From positions 7,983,132 to 8,047,131 of the forward strand of contig JAJEKV010000011.1 of assembly GCA_021234155.1 (NCBI GenBank): DNA of 64,000 bases. The letters are read 5' to 3'. The notes below the pieces were generated by a model. That model was not told where the DNA came from, ran no database searches, and saw only the letters and a program-made list of their open reading frames with translations. This document shows, piece by piece, positions 5,277 through 42,778 of this stretch. This DNA comes from Isoetes taiwanensis (Eukaryota; Streptophyta; Lycopodiopsida; Isoetales; Isoetaceae). Made by a program: the position numbers and the translations under genes. Every line of letters begins with the position of its first letter. Position 1 is the first letter of the stretch.

Positions 5277-5703
5277 CTAGGCTTTACCGGGCTCTTCATC
5301 ATCGGCTTTCACATCTAAACCAAGCTCTTCGTCGATATCATCAGAAGCAGATATGAGAATAAACTCGCATCCTTCAAAGTTGAGAAAATCAGGGGGATCA
5401 GCAGGCACAAATCTGTAGGAACCAATTCCACCTTGTAAGCTTGCAGGTTACAAGGTGCTCCACCTTGTCCCACGTTTGCAGGTGCTGGTTGCTCTGGATT
5501 CTTGACCTCTACATTTAACAACTCAATAAAGAAACTAATTTATGGATATGACTGGACTGGAGAAAAACACACCTGTATGATATAAGAACCCTCATATTCA
5601 ATGTTGAAGGCCGGCCATCTGTTTCCTTTTTAGGTAAATCTAACTTGTATACAAGATGAGTGTGCGTTCTACGTGCAGACATATGGCGCAGTAATCTATA
5701 CAC
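5277..5703 (-). pseudogene. Conserved plant protein, C-terminal exons, frameshifted
   Basis: Two minus-strand exons are visible. The first (5703 to 5573) encodes HLVYKLDLPKKETDG, then in another frame FNIEYEGSYIIQ, and ends at a CAG|GTGTG donor. The second begins at 5506 after a TGTAGAG acceptor and encodes VKNPEQPAP. After another frame change it ends VPADPPDFLNFEGCEF, a short acidic tail and a stop at 5277-5279. I recall this motif set (HLVY...LPKKP, EGSYVIQVKNPE, PADPPDFLNYEGCEF) from a conserved plant protein family of unknown function whose name I cannot give. At least two frameshifts and a duplicated CAAGGTG-type segment near 5430-5460 make this a pseudogene. Confidence 0.5.
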
Positions 5704-7122
5704 TCCTTCACCTACAGGCCTTGCTGCAGAGACATGTCTATGCCCCCTTGTTTTTTTTTCTTTTGATTCTCAGGGTTTGGCTATGGCTGCGAAGCTTTAC
5801 ACAGGCTGCAAATTGTGGCAAGAAAAATCGCAAGGCAATATCAAAACAGAAATACAACAGATATTCAAAACAAGGCAAAAGGAATAAGGAGTCCATTTCT
5901 TCGTAGATATGTAGCAATGCAAAGCACAGAAGGTTTGGACGCTTAGCAGTGGCAGCATTAATGCAACAATGACGTTCTTCCTCATCTCTAGTTTTGCAGG
6001 CACAGGCACATCACATCACAGATAATTTTAGAGCAAAGGACAATGGCAGCAGCCGCTCATGGAAAGCAGTAGACACGAAACAAATTTTCTTTGTTAAGAG
6101 CATGGCCAAGCATTCTATCAGATAAAAGCATGGTAAATGTAATGTTAGAGTCTGTTTTGGCATATGTAAGAACCCGATAGTTTTGTACTATTTCTTTCCC
6201 CTTATTTCATGGCAACAGAAACGAGTAAACCCGGAGTAGAGCTAGGGGGAATGTGCAAAAAGTTGGAGTCTTTATGTGGCAGGTTCTCAGTTTCCACTGA
6301 AGTAACTGAGCAAAGGAAATCAAGAACATATATATTTGGAGTTCCTTGGCAGGTTTAAAGTTCGCTGTCATCAAGGAAATCCAGAACAGATTTTGAAACT
6401 TTGAAACATCACATCATTACGCGGCCAAAAGTCTAGTCCATTTGTTGCTACTTTGTCGTCCAAATTTGGACTTTTGTAGGCATATATAAAATTCAATGGT
6501 TTATTTTTGTTTCGTCCAACCTTGTTGGCTTCAAGTAATCACTTAGAGCAATTCCGCTTTTGCCCTCATAACACGCAATCTGACAGTGAGCCCCTTCTCT
6601 AGTAACAAAGGCATAACTTTTGATTGTATTCTTGCGGGATCTCATTCTTTGGTGCTTTTCATCATTGTATAGCACCATTTCTTCGGTCTTAGGCCTTTTA
6701 TTTGCTTATATGCCAATCGTCTCATCCATGCCTTGCCATTGGGGCAAATTTATCTAGAGTATATCCAAGGTCTTTTTTGTGGCTTGATCTCGCCAAGGTT
6801 TAGGTCCTTATCATGCCCCTACCTTTGACGCTAAGATGTCCAAATCTCGAGCCTAATGTCGAATGCAACTTCTTATATTATTGTCTTATTTCGCAATCTA
6901 TTTGGCTACTAACTATTATATCTTTGACTAGAATATAAACATCTATCATATTGTAGCCATTCCCATCATTGTTCCCTTGTCTGTATCTCCTCCATTCTTC
7001 TAGTTCAATGGTGAGTTCATATATATAAAAAGCAAGGCTTAAGGTATTATGATGCACCTGCATCAGGTTGATTTCCTATTTAGCAGTTTTTGCCACCTAC
7101 CTTCCTGCAGACCAACTGTTGT
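5704..7122. other. No recognisable feature
   Basis: AT-rich DNA with scattered short open frames on both strands. None has a recognisable motif, splice pattern or repeat structure. Confidence 0.4.
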
Positions 7123-11711: not shown

Positions 11712-12301
11712 GTTGCTACTATGAGGTTGACCATAGATTTGGCAGGCAACCACCAGCCCGTGTTCCACATAATTGCCTATAGAGCACCTGGGAAATTTTC
11801 TTGAAGGGACTGAGCAAAAATCTCAAGCAGCAAACACCAAATTGATTTCTTTCTATCTATGTTCTCATCAAATAAACCATAGTTTACCAATCTCACTCAT
11901 GAAGGTAATGTTCTTAGGGAGGCATTGCATAGAAATTGGAGCAGAATAGACAAGAGCTAGAGTTATCACTATCAGCACAAGTGGATAGTCTTGAAATGCT
12001 GGAAAGGGTGAACAAAAAAAAAGTAATAAGGATAGGGGCGAAAGAGATGGCACCTAAAATCACTAGCAGGTAATGTATAAGTTAGATTATTTTTTAACCT
12101 GTCATGTATATGTGGCTTGGCAATAATCAGTGAAGCCCGAATACTTCAGAAGGAAAGCAATGGATTCAGGATGACTTCGACGAATACACGCTGTCGTGGA
12201 TTACAGTCCGCTGATCCGCGTGCATGAAAGCTTTTATGACATGGTAGAGAGAGTGCTTGATATTTGTTGGAACAAGTGGCAACAAATTAGAGGTGCAGGT
12301 G

Positions 12302-12324
12302 GGTAAAAGAAAGCTAGGGTGTCT
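12302..12324 (+). repeat. Left terminal inverted repeat of the 8.84-kb transposon
   Basis: Perfect match over 23 bp to the reverse complement of 21122-21144. Directly inside it lies a short palindrome, TACATTTGGCCAAATGTA (about 12325-12342). Confidence 0.92.
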
Positions 12325-12593
12325 TACATTTGGCCAAATGTAGAGTAAGAGATGTATCACATTTCAAATACATAACCGTTTTTTCAGTATGTACATAATA
12401 GCTATATTATGGAATCTTTTTTTTCGGAACTACTTGCCACGTCAATTAAAACGCAATCATGAAGCAGATTTCAATTCCGCCCGCTCTAACTCCAAGAAAC
12501 GCCTGAGCGTTAGGAGAATTTCCCCTTTTTCGGCTAGAACTTCGCCTGACTCTAGGATTTCCCTCCTTCTTGCGGAATTCCTCCAGCTTAACC

Positions 12594-15500
12594 CTAAACC
12601 ACGCAAGAACCATGATGAACAACGAAGGAACAGAAATGGCGCAAAGAAGATTGCAATATCGGAATGTGACAAAGAAAATGAAGCGTAAGATTGATGAAAT
12701 TTGTAAATTTATATATGATCAGGTTCAAGATTTCGTCCATACAAAGGAGAGCTTTAGCGATGAAAACCGTTCGGGATGAAAGCTGCACTTCTTCTTTGAA
12801 CCCGCCATTGGAAATCCAAAAAGCAATTCTGAAGGATACTATGCTAAAAAATATCCGTGAAGGTCGCAGGAAGTGAAACAAGCAAATAGCAATGATAAAT
12901 TAGTGACTAAGCATTCCCTGTTATCAATGATTGTTGGTGAGAATGGAAAACTTCGGGCAAAAGGAGTAGCCTCCAGAATTCTTCAAGTGCAAGCAAGAAA
13001 CCTCACAAAAGCTGCAATTAGAAGAAAGCGGATGTCATTATCGAAGCTACTATATGTGGAACGCGGCGGGAAGGCAACCCAGGCGGAGACATGCTTAGGA
13101 ATCAACCAAGCAGGTTGGTAAATGAGTTTTGGTTAACCCACACACAAAAACTTCTCCAAAGTGAGGGATGTCGGGAAGAAAAGGACACTTCAATCCAGTT
13201 TTGGACATGCCCCAGGTCAGTTTTAAGTCTTTTAATCCTCTTTTTTGCAAGCTTGATAGAAGCTAGCTTCTGTGCATCCTGGATAAGTTTAGTAATCCTA
13301 TTTGCATTCCATGCAAGGGATGTTTAGGGTATACATTGAAGTACATCCAACTACAGTAATTATATTTTTACACTTGGAAGTACTGAATGAGCTATGTTTA
13401 ACAAGAAAAGTACTTGGATGTACTTCCAATTACATCCAATGTGGAATAAGGCAGAAAATGTGTTGAAAGTCAGGCTGTGTTATTATAGTCTTGATTTTTG
13501 TAGTTCCCAAGTACATTGTAGTACATTTTAAGCTTTCCTGATCTCAAGATAGTTTTGAAAGATAGGGTGATACATAAAAGTATTTAAATGTACTTCCTTC
13601 CATAAGAAAAGTATTGAATACATACATCATGTCTGATGACAACATGCGTGACCTGGTTACATATTGAGTTTTTATGTACATGGAACTCTTTGGAGTACAT
13701 TCTTTATACATTTATACATATCATGTACATGGTATGCGATGTTGTGGTATAGTAGTTGAATGTATATCAAATCATGATCCGAATGCCATAGAACTAATGC
13801 AATGTCGCAACATCTTTGGATTAAGTAAGTAGTTCTAATTTATATCTTACTTATACATGCCGCTTTTTCCTTGCTTGAGTGAATTGTATGAGATGTTCAA
13901 AGATGAACATCACGAAGTGAAGATTAGTATCGAAAAGTTCGAGCTGCTTAAGCCTACGTGTGTGAGAAGGTTGAAAGAGGAACACATCTTCAGCTGCGTG
14001 AAGCATGAACAAGCTGATCTATGATAAAGCTTTTAGCGTCCGAGGAGCAAATTTCATGCCAATTGTACATGTTCTTGTGGTGTTTGTGCAGCAGATGAGA
14101 ACAACAAATGGCGTCTAAGCTCCTTCTAAAACATTTCAAAATGTTGGTGCTATGTGGAGAGCTACGATGCCTGTGACAAAGGAAGGCGAAGAGTGGCATA
14201 GTTTGATTTGTGTCAAGGGAGAGTGCAGGCTGGCAATTGAAAATATTCAAATCTGTCCTAAGGAGAAAGAGTCGCGGAGAATGAGAACATTGAATGGCAA
14301 GTTTACAAGAACGTGAACGAACCTTCCAAAGCTGGCACTTCAAGGAGGTTGAAGCTTGTTACTGAAAGCGGGAGTCCAGGTACATTGCTTGACAAGATGT
14401 TTCAGCACCTTACAAAGTTCACTATTCACAACTTTTCAGCAAGTTGGCAGAGCAAACAATTCAGGAAATCAGTGCAAAATTTGAGGGATGATTCTGTTTT
14501 GTCAGTAATGGACTTTGCAAAGAACTACACTTTGCAGCCATTCAGGGAGGTTCAGTCCGAGCATTGGAACAATGACCAGATAACTATTCTGGTGCATATA
14601 ACCATGATGAAAGTCAATGGCGAGCTGAAAAATACTGTTCATTTGTATGTTTCCGATGTTATGAAGCATGATGCTTTCTTTATTCAGGCTGCACTCAAGA
14701 AGCACCATATTTGGATGATGCAAAAAGGTTTTGGCCACATCAAATACCATGTCATGTGGTCTGATGGGTGTGCTGCTCAGTTTAAGTGTTCTCGAGCCTT
14801 TTATTTAAATGTGGCCCAATATTATAACAGGTATAAAATTAGGATGCAGTGGAATTATTTTGGCTCAGGCCATGGAAAAGGAGAACATGATGGGCAGGCT
14901 GCTTTGGAGAAAAGGTTCCTAGCAGACGAGCAAAGGAAAGAGAATGGTGTTCCGATTTTGGGTGCCAACTCTGCTTGCACTTTGCTGAGACAAAAGAAGT
15001 GCAAAATGGACAGAGTCATATGGGAGGTGATGGCAGAAGACATTAACAGGGACCCTCGTTCAGATTGTGAGACATTGCCTGGTACTCTAGCTATACATTG
15101 TGTGTCTGCTATTAATCCAGCTGACCCAACACTTGTCATGTATAGATCCCTGTCATGTTTTTGCAATGGTTGCTTGAATTTCGGGATGGGGAGAATGTGA
15201 GAATCTCGAGCATTGTGGTGCGTGGAATTTGCACAAAACCGGAGTCGGCCCGGTCGACGAACAAGAAGAGCTAGTTGGTTTTATGCGGTACCGATGAGCA
15301 AGAACTATCCGATGTACTCCAAATTGGAGACATATTTGCATCTTTTGCTGCTCTCCAGGGAATCATGAAAATGTTCCATACCGTCCTCCTATGCGTGAAG
15401 GAGATGCATATTCTTTAGGAAGATGTGATTGACGACTATAGAAATAGAATGCTTGCTGGTGACAGGGTTATAGCTGGTCATTACTATCAACTGCTACAAG

Positions 15501-15604
15501 GCACAAACCACAAGTACAAGTTGTTGGATGACAAAATAGTATTGGTACCAGCTGAATCAGTAATTGGAGCAAAGTTCACGATCTGTGAGTCAAGCATAAG
15601 TTGA
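12594..15604 (+). CDS. DDE-like transposase gene of the 8.84-kb transposon (interrupted)
   Basis: The best continuous part is 14313-15200 (295 codons). It shows VMDFAKNY (candidate first Asp), then VQSEHWNNDQIT, VSDVMKHD, WSDGCAAQFKCS (candidate second acidic site) and FGSGHGKGEHDGQA. I remember this order (LDFAENY, VQSAHW, SDG..SQFK, HGKG..DG) from uncharacterised DDE transposases of animal and plant repeats, but cannot name the superfamily. Upstream pieces include EHHEVKISIEKFELLKPTCV (about 13910-13975) and a Cys-rich segment HANCTCSCGVCAADEN (about 14055-14100), a likely zinc-binding site. A C-terminal piece, YYQLLQGTNHKYKLLDDK, lies near 15480-15535. Fragments at 12594-13121 are basic and probably N-terminal. 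Frame changes between the pieces mean either introns or decay. Confidence 0.6.
13325..13760. repeat. GTACAT-rich array, left
   Basis: Roughly ten copies of GTACAT or ATGTAC in about 430 bp, in both orientations and often as AAGTACAT or GATGTACTT. It has no coding potential. A matching array lies at 19140-19560. Such arrays may be binding sites for the element's own DNA-binding protein; this is inference. Confidence 0.6.
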
Positions 15605-15734
15605 AGGGGGCGCGCAAAAGATATATATGATCACACGAGAGGTGCATGACATGCTTATATCAAGCCTACCTGAGATTGTTGAGTGCACATGACTAAGTTC
15701 TATGCAAAGGAACTTTCATATTTACCATCATCTT

Positions 15735-16107
15735 CTGTTATGTTGAGAAAACTAGTCGATTGCTTCAAGTTTTTTTGTTATTTACTTATTTTTTAATCTG
15801 AAGTGCATTTTGATACTTCAATTTCAGTATCACAGAATATCTTTTGTGACCAAGCAAAATGTATATCAGAAAGTACAAAATGTTCATCAATTGTTGCATG
15901 AAGAAGTTAAACTAGTCTGTGTTATGTTGAGAAAACTAGTCGATTCTTTGCAAGTTTTTTTCTTATTTACTTATTTTTTAATCTGAAGTGCATTTTGATA
16001 CTTAAATTTCAGTATCACACAATCTCTTCTGATTCCAAGCACAATGTATATCAGAAAGTACACAATGTTCATCAATTGTTGCATGAAGAAGTTAAACTAG
16101 TCTGTGA
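15735..16107. repeat. 187-bp tandem duplication between convergent genes
   Basis: Units at 15735-15921 and 15922-16107 are about 93 percent alike by eye. Both begin TGTTATGTTGAGAAAACTAG and end GTTAAACTAGTCTGTG. They lie between the 3' end of the plus-strand transposase and the 3' end of the minus-strand phosphatase, so they may affect the termination regions of both. Confidence 0.85.
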
Positions 16108-16284
16108 ACTTGTTCTGTTATAATGGATATCAATAGCTTTTCTTTTGATTCATGAAACAAAGCAGAAAGTGGAACATGTATGGAGACAAAAACTCTTGTA
16201 TTACATATCACAAGATATACAACCTGATCATATCAGATATGATGCCAATATATACAAGTCTGTTGTTCATGTTTTATATTAACA

Positions 16285-17035
16285 TTAAATTACATTCAAA
16301 ATCTGGTCACAGCTGATGTGAAGCCAGTACATACTATTCTGCTGTTTCAATATGTTACTTTCTTGCGACTTGTCCATAGCCCTGGACATGCCATCTACGT
16401 CCTTGTAGCCCTCTGAAAGCATTTGCCTCGGGCGGTTTGTTGTTAGTACATCGGTTGGATTGCGTAAAGGATTCTGCTTCACATACTGTTGCAGGTCTGG
16501 TGCTATCAACAAACCCTCTAGCCATGGTTTCAGAAGTGTCTAGAGATCTGTGTCTTCAACATCACTTTCCTGCTATGAAGGTGGGCATATGCAATTTTCG
16601 TTGGGATTGAAGAGCATCTTGTACTCGGAGTCGTCTACTATTAGTGTGTTCTTTGTCATTCTGTCGGATACTTTCGTTATATAAACTCAATTGGCTTCAG
16701 ATACAAAGGTTTGTTTTCATATGCTGCAATCCGGAAAGGCAGCTCCAAACAGTGGCTTCCATCAAAGGTGAACCTTAAGTCCCTTATCTGCGTCATTGTG
16801 AAGATTTTATCCACTACTCTTGATAGGTTCCATGGAGCTATTGATGACCATATTCCTACTTCAAAGTGTTCAAATACAAATTCCAGGAATTCGTCTAGGT
16901 GGGGCCTTAAAAACAACATTTTCTTGCCTATTATGTCATAATTTCCAACTAGCTGATCATCTGATACCAAAGTCCTATGTATTTATTTTGCCAAAACATT
17001 ATTGATATCAAACACTATCAACCTTTTCTGTACAC
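16285..17035 (-). CDS. FCP1/NLI-interacting-factor-like phosphatase domain, transposon-borne, with an in-frame stop
   Basis: Reading on the minus strand, RLIVFDINNVLAK (17030-16990) gives the HAD nucleophile motif in the DxN form. Then come FLRPHLDEFLEFVFEHFEVG and IWSSIAPWNLSRVVDKIF (motif II region), FTFDGSHCLELPF, ENKPLYLKPI, and near 16665-16590 NTLIVDDSEYKMLFNPNENC, which carries the DDS motif. The tail QQYVKQNPLRNPTDVL (about 16500-16440) matches the usual end of plant proteins of this type. The family dephosphorylates RNA polymerase II CTD or other phosphoserines. A TAA directly after the first motif, plus a frame break, means the copy is either a two-exon gene or a pseudogene. Its place between transposase and protease suggests it is a resident gene of the element. 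Confidence 0.65.
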
Positions 17036-17169
17036 CTGATATGAAAGAACATGCAATTTATCAATAAAGTATGGTGGAGTTGAATAAAAAGAGATTTTAT
17101 TCATTAAAATTCAATGAAAAAATGTGTATTTTATAATCAAATAGTGTTTAGCATTGACAATAGGGATAG

Positions 17170-18270
17170 ACTGTTTCTCAGCCACATTTATTAGTACCAG
17201 GTGGTCTAATGGTTTCGGGTGCGATGTGAATGTGGTCCAACTCCTGAAGTAGTGCTCGGATGAGAACATCACGACGATCCTCTGCATACTTTGGCAAGAA
17301 TCAGTTTCGGGTAATCTGCAAATGTGACAACAATACTTACATAATAAGTATTAAAAACCATTTGTTTGCAAGACAAAAGAAGTGAGACACTCACATTGGT
17401 AGTTTTACCACCACGATTGTGTCCGCAAACTTACGCATATAAGCTGCAACATAGAGGCCACATGAATCCCCATCTTTTCTTGTGGACACTTATGAATCTT
17501 CACAACTGGTGAAGGATTTTATCCATGCTTCAAAAAGTGGGACACTTTCGACACACAACTGGCGTGCCATAGTGAGGATGTGGAGCCTGCAAAAGACCAG
17601 ATCTACTTTGTAGCAAATGAATGAAAGAAACTGCTAACATGGTATCCAATCCACTCAATATTAATAAAAGGAGATGTGAAATACAAAATACCTCTTAAGT
17701 GCAAGCATGTCAACGTCAATGTCCTTGGCAGAATTGAAGATCTGAATGTTGATGGTGTTCTTACTCTTAGTAAGTGCCATGTTGAAGATGGCCAAAGTGT
17801 GATGTTCAGTAACTCTACATAGCATTGGAATCATGATCCATCTGCACTTCAGCCAATTTATCCCTGTAAGAGCTACCTTTACAATATCTCTTCCACGCTC
17901 GGAGGCTGCCATAGATTTATCTTTTTCACTTGCCTTGGTCCATGCGGGAAGAACCAGACGTCGGCCTTCTTATCATCTGGAACACAGAGCTGTAGGTACC
18001 TATAACAAGTTGAAAAGGATAAAATTACTAACTTGACTTACACATACAAATGAACAAGTTCAAAGTCCAGTACCTGGCATACATATCCACATGCCGGTTG
18101 GAAAATTTTCCCACATCCATGTCCAGCACATCTTGTTCAAATAAATAACACTCCATTTCAGGCAAAGATCCTGGGAAAATCCTTGCCTTCTTGAGCTTCA
18201 TCATTCGGTTCAGCAAGGCATCATATGGCCTGTATTCAGAACTGCAGTCTGGGTTCAATGACCAGTACAT
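17170..18270 (-). CDS. Ulp1-type (C48) cysteine protease domain, transposon-borne
   Basis: Minus-strand exons encode YLFEQDVLDMDVGKFSNRHV (18270-18070), then KADVWFFPAWTKASEKDK. WLKCRWIMIPMLCRVTEHHT and LAIFNM follow (about 17870-17770), with the candidate catalytic His. Next is IFNSAKDIDVDMLALKR, ending at a GT donor. Near 17480-17425 comes RKDGDSCGLYVAAYMRKFA, the classic D-S-C-G active-site Cys motif. RALLQELDHIHIAPETIRPP is the C-terminal tail, ending at about 17180. The order His, Asp, Cys fits Ulp1/SENP proteases, which remove SUMO-like modifiers. Similar domains ride in MULE, CACTA and other transposons. Intron borders (TTGCAG-like, GTATTT) are plausible, but some joins need frame changes. 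Confidence 0.72.
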
Positions 18271-18662
18271 TTACACAAATCATCTACATTCGTCTACTAC
18301 TATCCATATTATTTTAAAGTTTTTAACTTGGATACTAGAATTAAAAAAAAATGTAAGATATGTAGTTCAAGTTACCTGTAGAGATCATTCTTACGATCTA
18401 GCGATCTTTTTTTCTCGAGTCAATTATCCATTTCCTTCCCATCTTTTGGTTTCCTCACTTCGGATTCTTATTAGGTCCGGAATCCTCGTCTTCAACCTCT
18501 CTCCGATTTCTCATTGTCATGAAATTCAGCTTCCTTTACTATGGGAAGCAAGATTTGACACAAACTTAAGAGTCCCTGCTCTACATCTTGATGCTCGGAA
18601 GATTCCTCTTCATTAGGACTCAGTAAACATAGGATGTCATGGACTTCTCATTTCTTTGTACA

Positions 18663-20763
18663 CTAAAATAAAATGCTTTTTTTACCTGTTTCTACTGCTT
18701 TAATTGTCTTCTTCTGTGGCTTTTTAGGCGTGGACTTCTTCTTTGGAGTCACATTTTCTGCTGCTGCCTTTACTTTTGAAGATGTGGCCTTAGCCTGCTC
18801 CCTCAATCTCTCGAGTTCCTCGTCATAATCTGGAATGTCACCATGCAGACCTGAAGTGCCAGCCTCCTCAACCTGTATCACCGCAGGAATAGTGATTTTG
18901 CTTTTTCCTTCAATCACTGCTTTCTTTCCCTCGGCTACATCTTGCACCTCACCTCCAAAACTGTGAAAACCGAACCAAGAATAAGAAATTGCTTCCTCTG
19001 ACACAATGCAAAACAATTTGAAAACAAAGCACCCTGACCGTGGTGTAATTTACGCCGGTTGTTTTTTTGGCACTTTGAAGCTCACGAAAATAAATCACAT
19101 AATGATCCGGATATCGGGTCTCAAACTAATGGGTCTCTAACTGTTTGCATACATATCAATAATTTGTACATATTACTAGAACTGATCTACATTCAAGTAA
19201 TTTGAGTACATACACATGTAAACAACTATTTATCTAGATGGAATGTACATGTAATGTACATGAATGTGCTCCAATGTATGCACATGTACACATCAGACAT
19301 TACATAAAATACCTCTAAATGTTCTGCCACAAAACTCAGTACACAACTCCTAATTTTATGTATTTAAGTTCTACATCTAGGACCCTACACTGTGAATGTA
19401 CAACATGTATGTAAGAAACACATATATGTATGACATGCAAGGCATGGAACTATAAGTATAAAATAACCAGTACACTCCTACATGCTGTAGCAAAACCTTA
19501 AGTGCAGCAATCTACATGTAAATGGATTCTACATGTAAATGGATTCTACATTGCAGTAATCCTGGGTGCAGCAAATTAAACATAAATCATGAAATCTTGC
19601 TTACCTCCGATTGTACACACCCAAGATCTTTGAAATGTTTTCATCCCATTTGCATGCTCTTGGGGAGATAGTCAATGGTAAATAGAATATGAGAAAGCGA
19701 GAAGATATGAAATGAATGCTCGCATGGAGCAACTAGGATAGGTTCATTATTAGCAAAGCCGTTACTACAAAACACACATCCATGCACAGATATGAATTTT
19801 TCTTCAGCTGGAGAGATCATTAAGCTTGTTTTGGGCTGAAGGAGAATCGCTGCAGAATGCATCATGTACTTATGCATATCATCAAGCCGTCTGCAGCACT
19901 CAAACTGAACTTTGTGAGCCTCCTCAAGTTTACGCAATCCTCTTTTCACATAACTCCTTCTCCCAAATGGCTTTCTCCAATGGCTCCCGAATTCTCTTCA
20001 AACATTTCTTCCTTCCCTGGTTCTATCCCTCATCAAAAGGTCAACCTCCTGGCACAGACGGTCTTGATGTCTCTCTTATTCTTAGCGTCATCGAGAACAC
20101 TATTAATGTCTTCTTGTATCTGTGCTAGGTCCTCTTCATGTGCATCCTTTCTTCCTGAAATCTTATTTATATTGTCACGTAATTCTGCCTGCTGAATTTT
20201 CAGTTCTTCAACCTTGGATGTGCTACTAATTAACTCTCCATGACATCGCTTTGCACCATGTAGTTTACGCGCAAATTCAAGCTCTTCCTTAGGGTAAAAT
20301 CCTTGCTGAAATTTAGGAACCTTGGATGTGGATTTAGAGGTCCCAATTTCTTCTGTAATAGCAGATTCTTTTGCTCCTCCCTTTGCCAAATCTTTGGCCA
20401 AAACTTTAAAAGTATCCCAATCTACTTTTTTACCTGTCGATTGAAGGGAAAATGCACGAGCAAAGTACTCAGGTACATGGCGATTTGTGACCTCCCGCTT
20501 ACCAAAAACAATTTCATAATGTTTGTAGTTCTCGGTCCACTCTGGCTTCACGCTAGATTCTTTGAACCCCCGTATGTCTTTGGGCCCCCACTGCTCGTCC
20601 ATTATCTGTTGTAAATCTGGAAAAATTTCATCCGCATTGACACATCTTACATGCTTTGCTTCCACAGCGGCCGGGTTCTTCACAAATAAGTCTTCTTTTT
20701 GCCCGGTTCCTCGAAGTTTGAGCCTTCCCTTCTTGTTTTTTGGCTTTCTTGCTAGAATCGACC
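18663..20763 (-). CDS. Coiled-coil and RING-like protein, transposon-borne, probably N-terminal part of the protease gene
   Basis: A minus-strand ATG at 20763 starts MVDSSKKAKKQEGKAQTS. A +1 change then leads into the long frame 20683-20033, with FPDLQQIMDEQWGPKD, EYFARAFSLQSTGKKVDWDT and a Glu/Lys-rich coiled coil. At 19949-19641, EEAHKVQFECCRRLDDMHKY is followed by HGCVFCSNGFANNEPILVAP and CEHSFHIF, a RING/zinc-ribbon-like Cys/His pattern. At 19016-18663, IPDYDEELERLREQAKA is followed by a basic KKKSTPKKPQKKTIK stretch. An acidic EEESSEHQDVEQ segment lies at about 18610-18570. All parts are collinear with and upstream of the Ulp1 domain, so one long spliced gene is the simplest reading. Confidence 0.5.
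19140..19560. repeat. GTACAT-rich array, right
   Basis: About eight GTACAT/ATGTAC/CATGTAC motifs in 420 bp, plus two adjacent TCTACATGTAAATGGAT units near 19520-19551. It falls inside a presumed intron of the minus-strand coiled-coil/protease gene. Confidence 0.55.
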
Positions 20764-21121
20764 ATTTTCAAATTTTTGTTTAATCTGGGGTGACTTAGGA
20801 GGCAAAGGCGTCCATTGCTTGGATTTGGGCAAGGATTTCGGAAGAAGAATAGTTATCAAAATTACTGCCGTTGATCACTCACAAACACAAAAAATTGGAA
20901 CGGCGGCAAATTTTTTTTCCTAAACAGAAACACTTCATGAAATCTCCCTCCGAAAAATTGCAATGAAGGTCCGTTCTGGTTGCCACTGCCACTCATAATT
21001 TTGAATTGCTGACGTGGCTATTCCTAATCATTGCATATCACAACTAACTAAAATTCAAAAAAATAACAAAAACAGGTGCCTACATGCCCTACATTATACA
21101 TAATGTAAGGGCATTTTTTTT

Positions 21122-21144
21122 AGACACCCTAGCTTTCTTTTACC
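21122..21144 (-). repeat. Right terminal inverted repeat of the 8.84-kb transposon
   Basis: Reverse complement of the left terminus. Just inside lies CCCTACATTATACATAATGT, another short palindrome, so both termini carry a TACATT-type hairpin close to the end. Confidence 0.92.
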
Positions 21145-21150
21145 CAGGTG

Positions 21151-27868: not shown

Positions 27869-28100
27869 TCATGCTAAACAAACAGAGGGAGTGTGGAGTG
27901 GAGATGGTGTTCTTCATATGAGCTTGCCAATGTGGTGGAATGGTTGGCAACAATCAGGGAAGAGGCTTGTGTGCATGTGGGGAACAAGGGTGGTGGAAGC
28001 AGGCTGCTTGAGTGTTCAAATGAATATGAATGAGTCAAGTGATGAACCTGCATGACAGAATGATAAATCTGTTAGTACTTTGGCTGCCATGTGGGGGTAT
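27869..28100 (-). other. 3' untranslated part of the Gypsy element
   Basis: This lies between the integrase stop and the 3' LTR. The plus strand is G/A-rich (ACAGAGGGAGTGTGGAGTGG). The expected polypurine tract on the minus strand directly next to the LTR is not obvious. Confidence 0.5.
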
Positions 28101-29338
28101 GGTGGCAGTCTTTGACCTGGTTTTGAATGAAATGGAGATGGGGGAAGGGCTTGTAATGGACTTTGGCCAACTTTGAGCAGATTATGTGCTTGTGAGTGTT
28201 CTGAAGGGTGGACCTGCAGCTTAAGGCAACATGTTGTTGCCAGTACCTCTTTAAGTGAAGGACATTGAAAGCATTTGGCAGTTCCTGGCCATCTGTGAGA
28301 TCCTTGAGCCAATAAGACTGTTTGCCAGCCTCACCAATAATTTCATAGGGCCCCTCCCACAAATTCTCAAACTTCCCTGCAACTTTCTCTCTAGCCTTGT
28401 TCCATTTCAACACGAGTTCTCCTATTTTCATGGTACCTTGTAATCTGTGAGCAGCTTTGAATGCTGCCATATCCTTAGCCTTTTTCAGTAAAATTGCATT
28501 TTCAGCATCATACCTGTGTTCCTCAAGTTGCATCAACCTAATAAACCTGTCTTGCAGAGCATCTTCCATCTTGAGGTTAATAATGTGTGCCATTCTTAAA
28601 GAAGGTAGTTCTAATTCTATAGGTAAGACAACCTCAATGCCATAAATCAAACTAAATGGGGTATGCTTGGTGGCATGCTTTATAGTAGTTCTGTAGGCCC
28701 ATAATGCATCAGTTAATCTCAAATGCCTGTCTTTTTTGGACATGCTTACTATTTTTTGCAGAATTGACTTGAGTACCTTGTTTGTTGACTCTGCCTGACC
28801 ATTTCCTTGGGGATAATATGCTGAACTCTTTGTATGCTTGATCTTGAGGGTGCAGAGTAGCTGCTCAATCACTTCATTGACAAATTGTGAACCTCTATCT
28901 GATATTAGTCAAGGGGATGCCAAATCTGGCACAAATATTTTCATGAAGGAATCTGGCTGTTGTTATGGCATTTGCTTGTCTCAATGGCACTGCTTCTGCC
29001 CATTTTGTGAAATAATCTGTAGCTACTAATATAAACTCATGCTGAGCAGAAGAAGGGGGATCTATAGGCCCTATAAAGTCCAATCCCCAGACTTGAAAGG
29101 GCCCTGGAGATATTATGGCTGTCAGTGGAGCAGGCTAGAGGATTCTCTTTCCAAATATCTGGCATTTGTGGCAACTTCTAATGTTTTCAAAGCAGTCCTT
29201 GAAGATTGAAGGCCAATAGTAACCTGACCTGAGTATCTTTTTGGCAGTTGTGTCTGCAGCAAAGTGACCTCCACATACACCCTCATGACAAGCTTTTAAC
29301 ACCAATTCTGCCTCAAACTTGTCCACACACCTTAGCAA
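28101..29338 (-). CDS. Integrase of the Gypsy element (frameshifted)
   Basis: In minus-strand order, the zinc finger is HEGVCGGHFAADTTAKK...SCHKCQ (HHCC, 29300-29150). The core has MDFIGPIDPP and VATDYFTKWAEAVPL (first catalytic Asp). A one-base frameshift near 28905 separates GIPLTNI from SDRGSQFVNEVIEQ (second Asp). Then YYPQGNGQAESTNK carries the catalytic Glu. The C-terminal GPY/F module is GPYEIIGEAGKQSYWLKDLT...NVLHLKRYW. All DDE residues are present, but the frameshift breaks the protein. No chromodomain is seen. Confidence 0.88.
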
Positions 29339-30489: not shown

Positions 30490-31743
30490 TTATTTGATGG
30501 TCTTAGGTGGTGTTAGGTTTCTAAGAGCTTGGATCTTACTTTCTGCCACCTGAATCCCTTGATTTGAGACCTCGGATTTAGGATCCATATCCTTGAAAAT
30601 GGTGTCCATTGCTCTCTGAAATGTGGTAGATGCATTCATGAGCCCAAAGGGCATTCTCTTCGTGGCAAAAGTCCCCCATGGCGTGATAAAAGATGTCTTG
30701 GCTTGATCTTCTTCCTTGATGCTAATCTGGTTAAATCCTGAGAAACCATCCAAAAATGAGTATACCTCCTTTCCTGCAACTGCCTGCAACACTTCTTCAA
30801 GAAAAGGTAGAGGATAGCAGTCTTTTATTGTTGCCTTGTTCAAATCCCTGTAATCAATGCATATCCTTATGGTTTTGTCCTTCTTTTCAACTGGTACAAT
30901 GCAAGACAGCCAGTCAGGATTGATTATCTCCTTTATAACTCCAGCCTCTTTCATTTTGAAGAGTTCTTCCCTAATAAGATCCAACAAAGAACTGTTAATT
31001 CTTCTAAGTTTTTGCACAACTGGTTTTGATTTTTCTTTTATCTTGATCTCAAATTCACAAACACTCTTATCAACACCTAAAAATTCTTTATAATCCCAAG
31101 CAAAAACATCATTCCAAGTATTAAATAAACTTACAAATGCTTCCCTTTCCTCTTCTTTGAACATATCTCCCACATATAAGACTCTATCTTCATTGTTTTT
31201 TCTTACCCTGATTTCTTTTACCTCTTTTTCAGAGCTGGCATTGATTACCAAGATTGGATAGAGTTGTTGAAGCTCCTCATCTTCCAGATCTTCCTCCTTG
31301 ATAGCTCCCTCAGCCAGATGCTCCATTAGAACATCTCTGCATAGGGAATCTGCCTCAGAGTTAAGCTCTCTGGGTATGTGCTGCATTTCCCAGGTTGTGA
31401 ACTTTGCCAGTGCCTCCAATGCTTGATCTTTGAGTTTCACCATTTCTTCATGCTTTGCCTGATATTTCCCTTCAATCTGCCTGCATATAAGTTGTGAATC
31501 TCCGAAGCTAACAAGGTTAGTAACACCCAAATGGTTAGCTTCTTGAAGACCTGCAATTAGTGCCTTATATTCTGCCATGTTTGAAGTTAGATCCTGATAG
31601 ATTCTTCCTACTTTGGCTATCAATCTGTTGTCTTTGTCCTTTATGATTGCAGCAGATGAAGCAATGCTTAGCCTTTTTGATACACCCCCATCAAACCACA
31701 TGTAAGCACTCACTTCCTTGAGCTTACCTTTGTGTACTTCCAA
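30490..31743 (-). CDS. RNase H (RVT_3-type) plus reverse transcriptase, domains in unusual order
   Basis: Residues about 14-140 form an RNase H with its four acidic residues: WFDGGVSKR (D), NMAEYKALIAGLQEA (E), FGDSQLICRQIEGKYQAKHE (D) and HIPRELNSEADSL (D). From about residue 190, a pol linker with FNTWNDVFAWDYKE leads to the reverse transcriptase: VVQKLRRIN, GVIKEIINPDWLSCIVPVEK, ICIDYRDLNKATIKDCYPLP, SFLDGFSGFNQI (first catalytic Asp) and TPWGTFATKRMPFGLMNAST. FKDMDPKSEVSNQGIQVAES then follows directly, so the segment that should hold YVDD is deleted. In Tat-type Gypsy elements, as I know them, the second RNase H follows the first, after the reverse transcriptase. Here it precedes it. Confidence 0.88.
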   Translation of the reverse strand: MEVHKGKLKEVSAYMWFDGGVSKRLSIASSAAIIKDKDNRLIAKVGRIYQDLTSNMAEYKALIAGLQEANHLGVTNLVSFGDSQLICRQIEGKYQAKHEEMVKLKDQALEALAKFTTWEMQHIPRELNSEADSLCRDVLMEHLAEGAIKEEDLEDEELQQLYPILVINASSEKEVKEIRVRKNNEDRVLYVGDMFKEEEREAFVSLFNTWNDVFAWDYKEFLGVDKSVCEFEIKIKEKSKPVVQKLRRINSSLLDLIREELFKMKEAGVIKEIINPDWLSCIVPVEKKDKTIRICIDYRDLNKATIKDCYPLPFLEEVLQAVAGKEVYSFLDGFSGFNQISIKEEDQAKTSFITPWGTFATKRMPFGLMNASTTFQRAMDTIFKDMDPKSEVSNQGIQVAESKIQALRNLTPPKTIK

Positions 31744-31769
31744 AGGCAGATTTTCTTTTACAAGATTTA

Positions 31770-32303
31770 CTAGGGTGCATCTCCCCCTCTATTCTTAATA
31801 AGATACTCTCCAATTTGTCTAGGAATTAGCATATCCTCTTGAATGAAATGGTAAGACTCATACTCACATAGTTTGTTGTAAAGTGTAACAGTCCTTCCAT
31901 CCGAGATGGTGCACTCTCCTTTTGACCAAACTGGCCTTGCATCCACAGTTGATAGCCATCTTCTTCCTAATAATAAGTCATAAATTTCCGCTCCCTCAAA
32001 TGCTACCACAACAAAGTTAGCAGCAACCTTGATTCCTTCAATATCAATTGCTACATCACTTATCATGCCTACAGGATTGATCCTTGAATTGGAGAAAGAT
32101 TTTAGGATCTTGGGGGCCTTTTTGTCCACCTCCAATCCACTTAGCTTCATAATGTGATGTGGCATGACATTCAAAGGTGATCCCCCATCTAACAATACCT
32201 TGTTTAGGATCTGATTACCAACCTTTGATGTGCAGGTGAAGGCACCAGGATCATGCTCTTCTTGTCTTAGCATTTGCTCAGCTATATGGTTAGTAAAAAC
32301 CAC
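31770..32303 (-). CDS. Aspartic protease of the Gypsy element
   Basis: FTCTSKVGNQILNKVLLDGG followed by SPLNVMPHHIM is the retropepsin active site in its DGG form. DVAIDIEGIKVAANFVVV and YDLLLGRRWLSTVDARPVWS (LLG.RW flap/helix motif) follow. The frame ends at 31770. The next frame opens at 31743, so Pol may need frameshifting or is broken here. Confidence 0.82.
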   Translation of the reverse strand: MVFTNHIAEQMLRQEEHDPGAFTCTSKVGNQILNKVLLDGGSPLNVMPHHIMKLSGLEVDKKAPKILKSFSNSRINPVGMISDVAIDIEGIKVAANFVVVAFEGAEIYDLLLGRRWLSTVDARPVWSKGECTISDGRTVTLYNKLCEYESYHFIQEDMLIPRQIGEYLIKNRGGDAP

Positions 32304-40786: not shown

Positions 40787-41017
40787 CTTATGTCTTATTC
40801 TCTTTGAATTCTTTTGACTTGTGCTTTGGGGCCGCGTCTGCGGCTATCAAAATGACTGCCAGAATGGCGGTTAAGGCGAACAACGTGCAGCAATCTTCCT
40901 CAAATTCAGATTATAAAGACATCATCTCAAGCATGACATCCATCACAGCTCACAGGTTTTTTTCAGCAATTTCAAGCATCATTTTAGGCTTTGATACAAT
41001 TTCTATTCCTTGGGATA

Positions 41018-42778
41018 ATGGCGTCCCTATACTGGATAGCAGTACTATTAATAATATTATTCTGGACAGCTACAACATCTGTTCAAGCAGCCGAGCAATG
41101 TATACCTGCAGATGGCATTGCTTTGCTTAAACTCAAATCTCAGGTAACAGATCTTGCAGCCATTTGGAATTCAAATGATACAAATTGTTGTAATTGGTAT
41201 GGGGTTGAATGCAATGTTACAACAGGGCGAGTTCATTATTTATATCTGCCTTCTGGTTCTGCTGAAACTCCCACTTCTGTTCTTGGGGCTCTAGCCACTA
41301 TGTCAGAGCTTAAAACCCTAAATGCTATAGGGCGGCCTTTTACAGGTCCAATCCCTACATCCCTTTCCAACCTTACAAAGTTAAAAAATCTGTGGTTGCC
41401 CAACAACCCAGGTATCAATGGTACCCTTCCTCACTTTCTCTTCAGCCTTCCTAATCTAGAAGAGCTTGATTTGTCTTGTGATTATTCTTTCTCTGGCATT
41501 ACTGGCAGTCTGCCGTCAAAATTCTCCAAGCTTAGCAAGCTCAGGATCCTCAAACTAAAGAAAGCTAAATTGGTAGGGACTATACCTTCTGCACTTTCTA
41601 TGCTCCATAACCTTGAAAGCTTGGATCTATCAAATAATCTTTTACATGGCACCATACCTTCTGCCGTTGGTTTGCTCCACAATCTTCAAGATTTGGATCT
41701 CTCAAATAATTTCTTACATGGTCCCATCCCTGCCAGTTTAGGAGACCTTTCTAAGCTTCAATACTTATCACTTCAGGATAATCCAGATATCGGAGGAACT
41801 CTTCCCTCTTCTTTTGAAGGCCTTAATACATTGTCAACATTGAGAATATCCAACACAAGTCTATATGGTCCCATTCCTGATATATTTAGAGGAACCCCAA
41901 ATCTGCAAGTTCTTGAGATCCAGAACAACTACTTCACAGGCCCACTTCCTCCATCGCTTAGCCTCCTTGGCAAGCTGTCAGAGTTTGATGGACATAGCAA
42001 CTATCTCTCTGGTCCTCTTAGTGATGGATTTGGCAGTAACCTCACGAATCTATATTATTTAGATCTCAGTTACAACAAGATTAATGGGCTGCCTACGGAT
42101 TTAAAGTCAATGAAAAACTTGTTTACTTTGAAATTAAGCGGAAATGTGCTAACCTTTGATTCTATCAAAGGCATTACAAGCATTCCAACACTTTCGGTTA
42201 TCAAGTTAAGCAACTGTAGCCTCAAAGGTCCCATACCTAGCTGGTTCAGCAAGCTCAGGTTACCAGGAGACCCAGATGATCCGCATCTACCAGCTGTTAT
42301 TGATTTGTCATTTAACTCCATTACAGGAAGCATCTCCCCTGAATTTGGTAACATAATAGGTCTTGGTGGTTTATATCTTCACAACAACAAGATTTCAGGC
42401 ATAATACCATCAAATCTTGGAAATGCAGAGAGCCTGGAAAATGTGGACCTATCAGAGAATCAGCTAAGTGGCTCAATTCCTGAGTCATTGTCGAAACTGT
42501 GGCAGCTAAAGTCTTTAGATTTATCCCACAACAAAATTTCTGGTAAGCTGCCATCTGGCATAGGATCTTTAGTTCGTTTGAAAGACTTGGATTTGTCCAG
42601 GAATAAATTGAGTGGCTCAATCCCAGAGTCTTTCTTGAATCTATGGTTGGAATCACTAGATTTGTCATACAACAAATTAAGTGGGAAGATACCACAAGGA
42701 GACGCTTTAAACAAGTTCAATTCATCAAGCTACGAGGGCAATCCAAGGCTATGTGGCTACCCTCTTAAAGGATGCTAA
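41018..42778 (+). CDS. Secreted leucine-rich-repeat protein (LRR-RLP/DRT100-like), intact
   Basis: The only long intact host gene. I prefer the second Met (41018, giving 586 residues) because it starts a clean signal peptide (MASLYWIAVLLIILFWTATT, cleavage after VQA). The nine upstream codons from 40991 would spoil it. Next comes the LRRNT cap (CIPADGIALLKLKSQV...NCCNWYGVEC) with paired Cys. About 19 plant-type LRRs follow with the LxGxIPxxLxxLxxLxxLdLSxNxL pattern. The C-terminal cap is SSSYEGNPRLCGYPLKGC, directly before the stop. There is no transmembrane segment or kinase. The mature protein would be apoplastic, perhaps in recognition or cell-wall functions, or it may be a receptor truncated after its ectodomain. 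It has a single exon, N-glycosylation sites and no frame damage. Confidence 0.88.
   Translation: MASLYWIAVLLIILFWTATTSVQAAEQCIPADGIALLKLKSQVTDLAAIWNSNDTNCCNWYGVECNVTTGRVHYLYLPSGSAETPTSVLGALATMSELKTLNAIGRPFTGPIPTSLSNLTKLKNLWLPNNPGINGTLPHFLFSLPNLEELDLSCDYSFSGITGSLPSKFSKLSKLRILKLKKAKLVGTIPSALSMLHNLESLDLSNNLLHGTIPSAVGLLHNLQDLDLSNNFLHGPIPASLGDLSKLQYLSLQDNPDIGGTLPSSFEGLNTLSTLRISNTSLYGPIPDIFRGTPNLQVLEIQNNYFTGPLPPSLSLLGKLSEFDGHSNYLSGPLSDGFGSNLTNLYYLDLSYNKINGLPTDLKSMKNLFTLKLSGNVLTFDSIKGITSIPTLSVIKLSNCSLKGPIPSWFSKLRLPGDPDDPHLPAVIDLSFNSITGSISPEFGNIIGLGGLYLHNNKISGIIPSNLGNAESLENVDLSENQLSGSIPESLSKLWQLKSLDLSHNKISGKLPSGIGSLVRLKDLDLSRNKLSGSIPESFLNLWLESLDLSYNKLSGKIPQGDALNKFNSSSYEGNPRLCGYPLKGC

Follow-up and report, generated by a model that had tools for sequence, protein, structure and literature searches.

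A Sola-like DNA transposon with a candidate RING, NIF and Ulp1 helper gene in Isoetes taiwanensis

The element and its ends

We analyzed a 64-kb stretch of Isoetes taiwanensis contig JAJEKV010000011.1 (the window; positions below are those of the window, and L-numbers denote loci fetched elsewhere in the genome). It contains an element of 8,845 bp end to end (12301-21145), a decayed copy of a multi-copy cut-and-paste DNA transposon that is probably Sola-like. Two convergent genes make up the element: a transposase on the forward strand and, on the reverse strand, an accessory gene with coiled-coil, RING-like, Ulp1-type protease and NIF/FCP1-like parts. Its features are:

12297-12300, no strand: left copy of the target-site duplication, AGGT (exact 4 bp in 27 of 29 two-ended copies)
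12301-12324, + strand: left 24-bp terminal inverted repeat, GGGTAAAAGAAAGCTAGGGTGTCT, 100% complementary to the right arm
12792-13223, + strand: N-terminal transposase exon, homologous to L018:8375-9256 (tblastn E 1.7e-18)
13341-13725, + strand: stretch between transposase blocks (13223 and 13878), rich in GTACAT/ATGTAC (motif counts, block limits)
13878-15680, + strand: main part of the transposase, with a Cys/His-rich N-terminal part, an RNase-H catalytic core and a C-terminal part (tblastn to the 620-aa L018 open frame)
14262-15200, + strand: 312-aa open frame with the DDD triad, codons at 14511, 14763 and 14889 (open-frame list, alignment)
15766-16106, no strand: direct duplication of 156 nt, 94% identical, with a 185-nt period, between the 3' ends of the convergent genes (repeat search)
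16665-17045, - strand: NIF/FCP1-like domain, with the motif DINNVL within 16986-17015 and a stop soon after it (PF03031, 29.3 bits)
17412-17942, - strand: exons of a Ulp1-type cysteine protease, frame broken (tblastn to the L023 Ulp1, E 1.5e-7)
19701-19928, - strand: RING-like zinc-finger part (PF17123, 25.8 bits, below the cut-off of 27; 17 of 17 copies)
20036-20767, - strand: N-terminal and coiled-coil part, a 244-aa open frame (17 of 17 copies)
21122-21145, - strand: right 24-bp terminal inverted repeat, pairing with the left arm
21146-21149, no strand: right copy of the target-site duplication, AGGT (duplication survey of 29 copies)

An inverted-repeat search returned arms of 25 nt at 100% identity (12300-12324 and 21122-21146), 24 bp of which belong to the element; its ends begin GGGTAAAAG. 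An earlier sequence-only reading of this DNA had described a complete DNA transposon with perfect 23-bp inverted termini. The perfect ends, the 8,845-bp element between them and the many copies in the genome bear out the complete transposon, and the length of the termini is corrected to 24 bp. Across the genome (1,658,258,908 bases in 1,110 contigs), the 23-bp terminus occurs 566 times at up to three mismatches, versus 2 occurrences for a reversed-pattern control, so it is not due to chance. Copies of the window family are mutually 89-96% identical (L015, which is not comparable in the alignment, is left out).

The same reading had proposed a 6-bp (or 4-bp) target-site duplication, with CAGGTG on both sides. 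Aligning several insertions settled the length at 4 bp. We fetched 16 terminus-bearing stretches; 15 of them, and the window, have both ends, and L015 is cut before its right end. Together with two related sets of ends described below, 29 two-ended copies were available, and the duplication is exactly 4 bp in 27: in 14 of 16 for the window family (L007 matches at three of four bases, L003 does not match), 12 of 12 for family B and the single copy of the L020 family. By eye, one lineage-C element has CAAA at both flanks. With the end placed at GGGT, none of the 29 copies shows a 5- or 6-bp duplication, and we reject the 6-bp length. The apparent CAGGTG is a chance extension, as a C precedes the AGGT target and a G follows it, and the element itself starts with G and ends with C.

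Two repeated features lie between the coding blocks. The 156-nt direct duplication has more than one match in 16 of the 17 window-family copies. GTACAT/ATGTAC motifs number 28 in the window element (3.2 per kb, compared with 0.56 per kb in the remaining window) and cluster at 13341-13725 and 19166-19396 and, in L018, about 1342-1651 from the left end. L018 has 23 in 9.5 kb, L020 has 10, and four family-B copies have 4-6 each. These clusters could be binding sites for the transposase or a regulator.

The transposase

By homology to the 620-aa open frame of L018 and the exon upstream of it, the transposase gene spans approximately 12792-15680. The main part aligns in three tblastn pieces (13878-15182, 15299-15583 and 15609-15680) and is not continuously open: there is a stop before 14262, and the next matching piece restarts at 15299. 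A genome search with the transposase gave 131 matches, some in long stop-free frames. Three aspartates (D226, D310 and D351 in L018 numbering) are invariant in all 15 aligned transposases, and likewise in all 12 transposases of another set in which lineage C is represented. E364, in the helix after D351, is as invariant as D351. In the window copy, K replaces the otherwise nearly invariant E of DFAENY. The motifs SDG..Q.K and HGKG..DG resemble what we take to be Sola transposase motifs.

The invariant D-D-D triad lies on a predicted RNase-H fold. One model has a mean predicted local distance difference test (pLDDT) score of 54 overall and about 70-90 across most of the core, with most of residues 215-470 confident; another, restricted to the core, averages 71.8. 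In the first, the elements follow RNase-H order, with D226 on beta-1, D310 ending beta-4 and D351 just ahead of the next helix, and the second has the same order. From this position, D351 rather than E364 would be the third catalytic residue. Among the 50 rows listed from each second-look structural alignment, Z is 9.5-8.0 and 8.8-7.4 for the two models, and the matches listed are RNase-H-fold enzymes, including retroviral integrases, prokaryotic Ago proteins, Mos1 and Metnase. Z near 8 is common, so the triad rather than the match list carries the argument, and transposase families absent from these lists are not excluded by them. The DDE-like transposase of the sequence-only reading is recovered as a DDE/D-type open frame (14262-15200) with an invariant DDD triad.

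The accessory gene

The accessory parts are transcribed in the order coiled coil (20767-20036), RING-like (19928-19701), Ulp1 (17942-17412) and NIF (17045-16665). We read them as one gene, which may encode one protein or several. RING models stayed under their Pfam cut-offs in all four copies scanned (25.8 of 27 bits in the window, 21.6 of 27.3 in L024, 18.5 of 27.3 in L030 and 15.7 of 29.1 in L071). Where a coiled-coil/RING-like part had been proposed, the coiled coil stands, and the RING-like match in the window lies just under the cut-off.

A Ulp1-type protease had also been proposed, and it is supported by alignment to L023, whose frame matches PF02902 (Peptidase_C48) at 33.9 bits (cut-off 20.7). 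The window stretch retains a His-bearing motif, TEHHTLAIF (17784-17810), and a Cys-bearing motif, GDSCGLY (17451-17471). A Pfam scan of the window frame 17661-17969 gave no Ulp1 match.

For the NIF part, PF03031 scores 29.3 bits in the window and 72.4 in L024 (cut-off 21.8); L018 falls just under, at 21.4. The FCP1/NLI-like phosphatase of the sequence-only reading is therefore confirmed as a domain. The catalytic motif is not, as the window has DINNVL in place of DxDxT. A PDB sequence search with the NIF-bearing L024 protein returned none at 0.001.

We considered whether the lineage-C accessory gene has a retropepsin domain. The L071 frame ahead of NIF scores 19.1 bits, below the cut-off of 28.2, and sequences about 94-97% identical to its retropepsin-like residues 1-101 occur at most of 150 listed places. 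Given this recurrence, the residues are probably a fragment of a long terminal repeat (LTR) retrotransposon beside NIF, and a shared domain was rejected. This piece of an abundant repeat lies directly ahead of the lineage-C NIF at L071:2-415 (C1051).

Retention and decay of the gene set

We examined 17 copies of the window family, the window's own and 16 fetched ones. Transposase, coiled coil and RING turned up in all 17, NIF and Ulp1 each in 16. The copy without NIF and Ulp1 is L016, which is shortened to 5.4 kb; it is the only one of the 17 to lack phosphatase and protease, a kind of finding that the sequence-only reading had named as counting against it. The gene set proposed there is otherwise retained.

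All copies examined are decayed. In the window copy, a stop lies just within NIF, the Ulp1 active-site exon has a broken frame and another stop precedes the transposase open frame; this copy presumably no longer makes these proteins. The transposase piece is stop-free in two of 17 copies (window and L010), with 4 to 24 stops in the others, counts that include out-of-frame ends of tblastn pieces. Errors of assembly may account for some of the small indels, as long reads went into part of the genome: Nanopore reads are among the sources of the assembly (PMC8566536; here and below, papers are cited from the parts of them available to us). One window-family copy, L017 (C1054:3484100-3494000), has a 572-aa transposase frame. 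It also holds reverse-transcriptase-like frames (5307-6688, reversed strand), by eye apparently a non-LTR retrotransposon insertion.

Related lineages in the genome

The window family is not isolated. L020 is an 8,827-bp element with related ends, a CACT duplication, a coiled-coil gene and Ulp1. L023, of the L020 family, carries Ulp1, and L018 carries Ulp1 and a NIF with the motif EIQGVL. The right end of the L018 element was not found in 15.5 kb. No left end was found for the L024 element, where a second right-type end occupies its place.

We identified two further lineages, B and C, whose transposases are about 30-50% identical over the parts that align. Both have GGGT ends and leave 4-bp duplications, and both carry a coiled coil-RING-NIF gene in convergent orientation. 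Family-B ends, GGGTGAAAGTATGCTGGTGGGT, occur 1,020 times at up to two mismatches, versus 0 for the control. The elements are 7.5-7.7 kb in the four copies fetched whole, their transposase (29-51% identical to that of L018 over aligned pieces) is convergent with the coiled coil-RING-NIF gene, and RING and NIF are present in five of five loci searched. Lineage-C transposases (L054, L056) are numerous, many in open frames, and are 31-39% identical to that of L018 and 46-50% to those of B over the larger aligned pieces. One lineage-C element of 7,357 bp (summed) has GGGTGTAAATATGGTTCTGCTACCC ends and coiled-coil, RING and NIF parts. At L070 (C1051:6999700-7001699), the transposase end of the lineage-C element, NIF queries also match, and a second NIF-bearing sequence probably adjoins the element there.

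GGGT termini are present in all families read. Ulp1 was found only in the window's lineage, where it lies between RING and NIF. Since lineages with transposases only about 30-50% identical have it, the RING-NIF gene is an old component of the group. A terminus variant, GGGTAAAAGCATGTTAGGGTGTCC, recurs among the listed L018-type end sites (1,410 in total, up to two mismatches) and likely indicates further families of this group.

Linkage and history of the NIF domain

A genome search for NIF gave 151 matches, of which 150 were listed; we split these into the first 54 (at least 80.7 bits) and the other 96. At least 30 of the 96 lower-scoring places lie beside a transposase, compared with 0.28 expected by chance: 14 within 8 kb of a listed lineage-B transposase, 14 near a lineage-C transposase and two read directly. 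Both transposase lists hold the best matches returned, so 30 is a lower bound. Among the 28 list-derived pairs, 27 are convergent. None of the 54 top-ranked places is near a listed lineage-B or lineage-C transposase. We read three further NIF neighborhoods, and two have a transposase.

The two groups differ in motif I. All five top-ranked NIF domains read have DxD (DLDETL, DLDQTL or DLDHTL). Lineage-B and -C copies have D[IL]NG[VA]L in seven of seven aligned (C1086, one of four rows put in lineage C, was assigned by sequence only), and the window family has DINNVL in all 16 NIF-bearing copies. The second catalytic Asp is missing from every transposon-linked NIF read, which have DxN, or ExQ in L018, and so depart from the DxDx(T/V) motif of NLI/FCP1 phosphatases that they otherwise match by domain (72 bits in L024, 29 in the window). 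In haloacid dehalogenase chemistry, loss of this second Asp predicts lost or altered catalysis. Activity as a phosphatase is therefore doubtful; reading phospho-peptides, or slow catalysis, is a likelier role for the domain than ordinary phosphatase action. Another repeated NIF group has the motif DMNGVL and scores about 70-80 bits (C1027:14502774, C961:1012383 and similar). Two unplaced rows of it were aligned, and the one place sampled, L055, shows no transposase in the 3 kb read downstream; the group may represent either a fourth lineage or a family of host DxN genes.

In a tree of 16 NIF rows, a 100/100 branch has the five DxD rows on one side and all 11 rows of DxN type or of the window lineage on the other, and a single origin of the transposon-type NIF is likely on this topology. 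The ratio of nonsynonymous to synonymous substitution rates (dN/dS) is 0.14-0.51 within lineage B (six pairs). Within lineage C, five pairs give 0.43-0.83, and a sixth, which has one synonymous change, gives 3.4. Synonymous sites are saturated between B and C.

These data bear on another possibility, that this is an ordinary transposon with captured host gene fragments (Pack-type) and the phosphatase and protease are passengers. Captured genes are common in plant transposons, NIF is common in this genome (54 top-ranked places, DxD in all five read), and every copy examined is decayed. Capture would not predict parts kept in 16 or 17 of 17 copies, nor a RING-NIF gene in the same convergent place across lineages whose NIF synonymous sites are saturated, nor DxN or ExQ where the top-ranked NIF genes have DxD. 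Given retention, placement and motif I, we consider capture as the source of NIF and Ulp1 largely excluded and this explanation of the element improbable.

Classification

Ulp1 also occurs in other transposon superfamilies. CACTA ends and duplications differ from those here, as does the Mutator transposase from that of this element, and Pfam detected no domain of Ginger1, Mutator or CACTA in the transposase frames scanned. Ginger1 shares 4-bp duplications (PMC10045372), some of its families have a Ulp1 domain, and plant Mutator elements carry a Ulp1 protease (PMC2836005). Ginger1 has TGTNR ends, a Gypsy-type integrase with a GPY/F motif, and a Ulp1 or OTU domain at the transposase C-terminus (PMC2836005), in contrast to the GGGT ends and the separate, convergent accessory gene on the opposite strand that holds Ulp1 here; the available part of that description mentions no NIF or RING parts. 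Mutator duplications are 7-12 bp (PMC10741241), versus 4 bp. Membership in any of these superfamilies is very improbable, the least probable of the explanations considered.

Sola elements are described as having a DDD transposase, 4-bp duplications, sizes mostly of 2-9 kb and variable ends; they occur in moss and are seemingly uncommon in flowering plants (PMC10741241). Sola is also reported from moss in PMC9033089 and appears in a fern repeat table (PMC6890710). The DDD transposase, 4-bp duplications, inverted ends and length of the window element (8,845 bp, with relatives of 8,827 bp and 7.5-7.7 kb) agree with this description. Carrying an extra gene is also a shared trait: amoebal Sola elements carry Fanzor1 (PMC3627910), and Ectocarpus Sola1 has a ParB-methyltransferase gene on the opposite strand (PMC12477816). 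The RING-NIF or Ulp1-NIF helper is a difference, as the available parts of the Sola descriptions do not mention one. We call the element Sola-like because the checkable Sola traits fit, and membership in Sola is likely. The best explanation, a Sola-like cut-and-paste transposon (Sola superfamily or a close sister) with a conserved helper in ubiquitin/SUMO/phospho-signaling, has in our estimate a joint probability of about 0.65.

Several observations weigh against this explanation. The placement comes from published description rather than sequence comparison. Foldseek with the predicted transposase gave no match at E 0.001 or better, Pfam, NCBIfam and PDB-sequence scans of the transposase frames gave no transposase match, and the models that distinguish D351 from E364 are of moderate confidence. 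The gene set varies between elements: L020 and L023 gave no NIF with three NIF queries, and Ulp1 was detected neither in the five family-B loci searched nor in the four fetched pieces of the lineage-C element. No transposase was recognizable in the 3 kb read downstream of the L055 NIF. No copy examined is intact across the full gene set, which bears on activity and splicing. The NIF tree has several long branches, those of the window lineage among them, and includes no plant host DxN genes, and the lineage-C dN/dS values are weak evidence of recent constraint.

The sequence-only reading had suggested that this may be an undescribed lineage, and a superfamily distinct from Sola deserves consideration; it would be characterized by GGGT ends, 4-bp duplications, an HGKGxHDG transposase and a RING-NIF helper. 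Pfam, NCBIfam and PDB sequences leave the transposase unnamed; a PDB sequence search with the transposase alignment gave none at E up to 1, and Foldseek found nothing among viral proteins at E 0.001 or better. Short patterns fit 14 stretches of viral and 103 of prokaryote contigs, and none was confirmed as a relative, although absence is not thereby shown. Several divergent lineages of one genome also have the GGGT ends, duplication length and helper gene in common. Both checkable Sola traits, DDD and 4 bp, nevertheless fit (PMC10741241), so a new superfamily is not needed, and the missing library match is uninformative since the libraries compared include no Sola sequences. We regard a separate superfamily as unlikely, though the strongest of the competing explanations. 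Slightly less likely again is an unnamed, ancient plant DNA-transposon group with GGGT ends, 4-bp duplications and an HGKGxHDG DDD transposase, whose helper, a RING joined to a catalytically altered phosphatase domain plus a SUMO protease in one lineage, is a reader and editor of host ubiquitin, SUMO and phosphorylation signals.

Elsewhere in the window

Long open frames on the reverse strand at 28075-28908 and 30493-31788 resemble, by eye, LTR-retrotransposon integrase and RNase H. A 596-aa open frame at 40988-42775 (+ strand) has a start resembling a plant leucine-rich-repeat protein, also by eye.

Proposed mechanism and implications

For the Sola-like element with its helper, we propose a transposase of about 850 aa (two L018 frames added together), built around a D-D-D RNase-H core. 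It would recognize the 24-bp GGGT ends and cut the element out, and reinsertion at a staggered cut would leave the 4-bp duplications. The second, convergent gene would make coiled-coil, RING and NIF parts and, in the window's lineage, a Ulp1 SUMO protease between RING and NIF. The helper could oligomerize via its coiled coil, and RING and Ulp1 could recruit ubiquitin/SUMO machinery, altering modification of the transposase or of repair factors. The NIF domain may read a phosphorylated host protein. That related elements of the same genome kept versions of the accessory gene suggests such a role, in which it would help the element to spread via host ubiquitin/SUMO and phospho-signaling. Transposon-borne Ulp1 has been proposed as possibly acting on repair during or after transposition (PMC2836005).

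We found no description of a transposon with NIF and Ulp1, or RING and NIF, in the available open-access literature, a scope outside which Repbase Reports and most subscription journals fall and which makes this weak evidence. By that literature, a conserved RING-NIF(-Ulp1) helper in a Sola-like transposon is apparently a new combination. SUMO and ubiquitin proteases of transposons are known, and in the available part of PMC2836005 their role appears in print only as a suggestion. Here the helper gene is kept through deep transposase divergence, in many copies within one genome and with open-framed relatives present. The transposon-type NIF copies read point to a common loss or change of phosphatase chemistry. 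With this finding, one can test whether a plant transposon moves by manipulating the SUMO/ubiquitin and phospho-signaling of its host.

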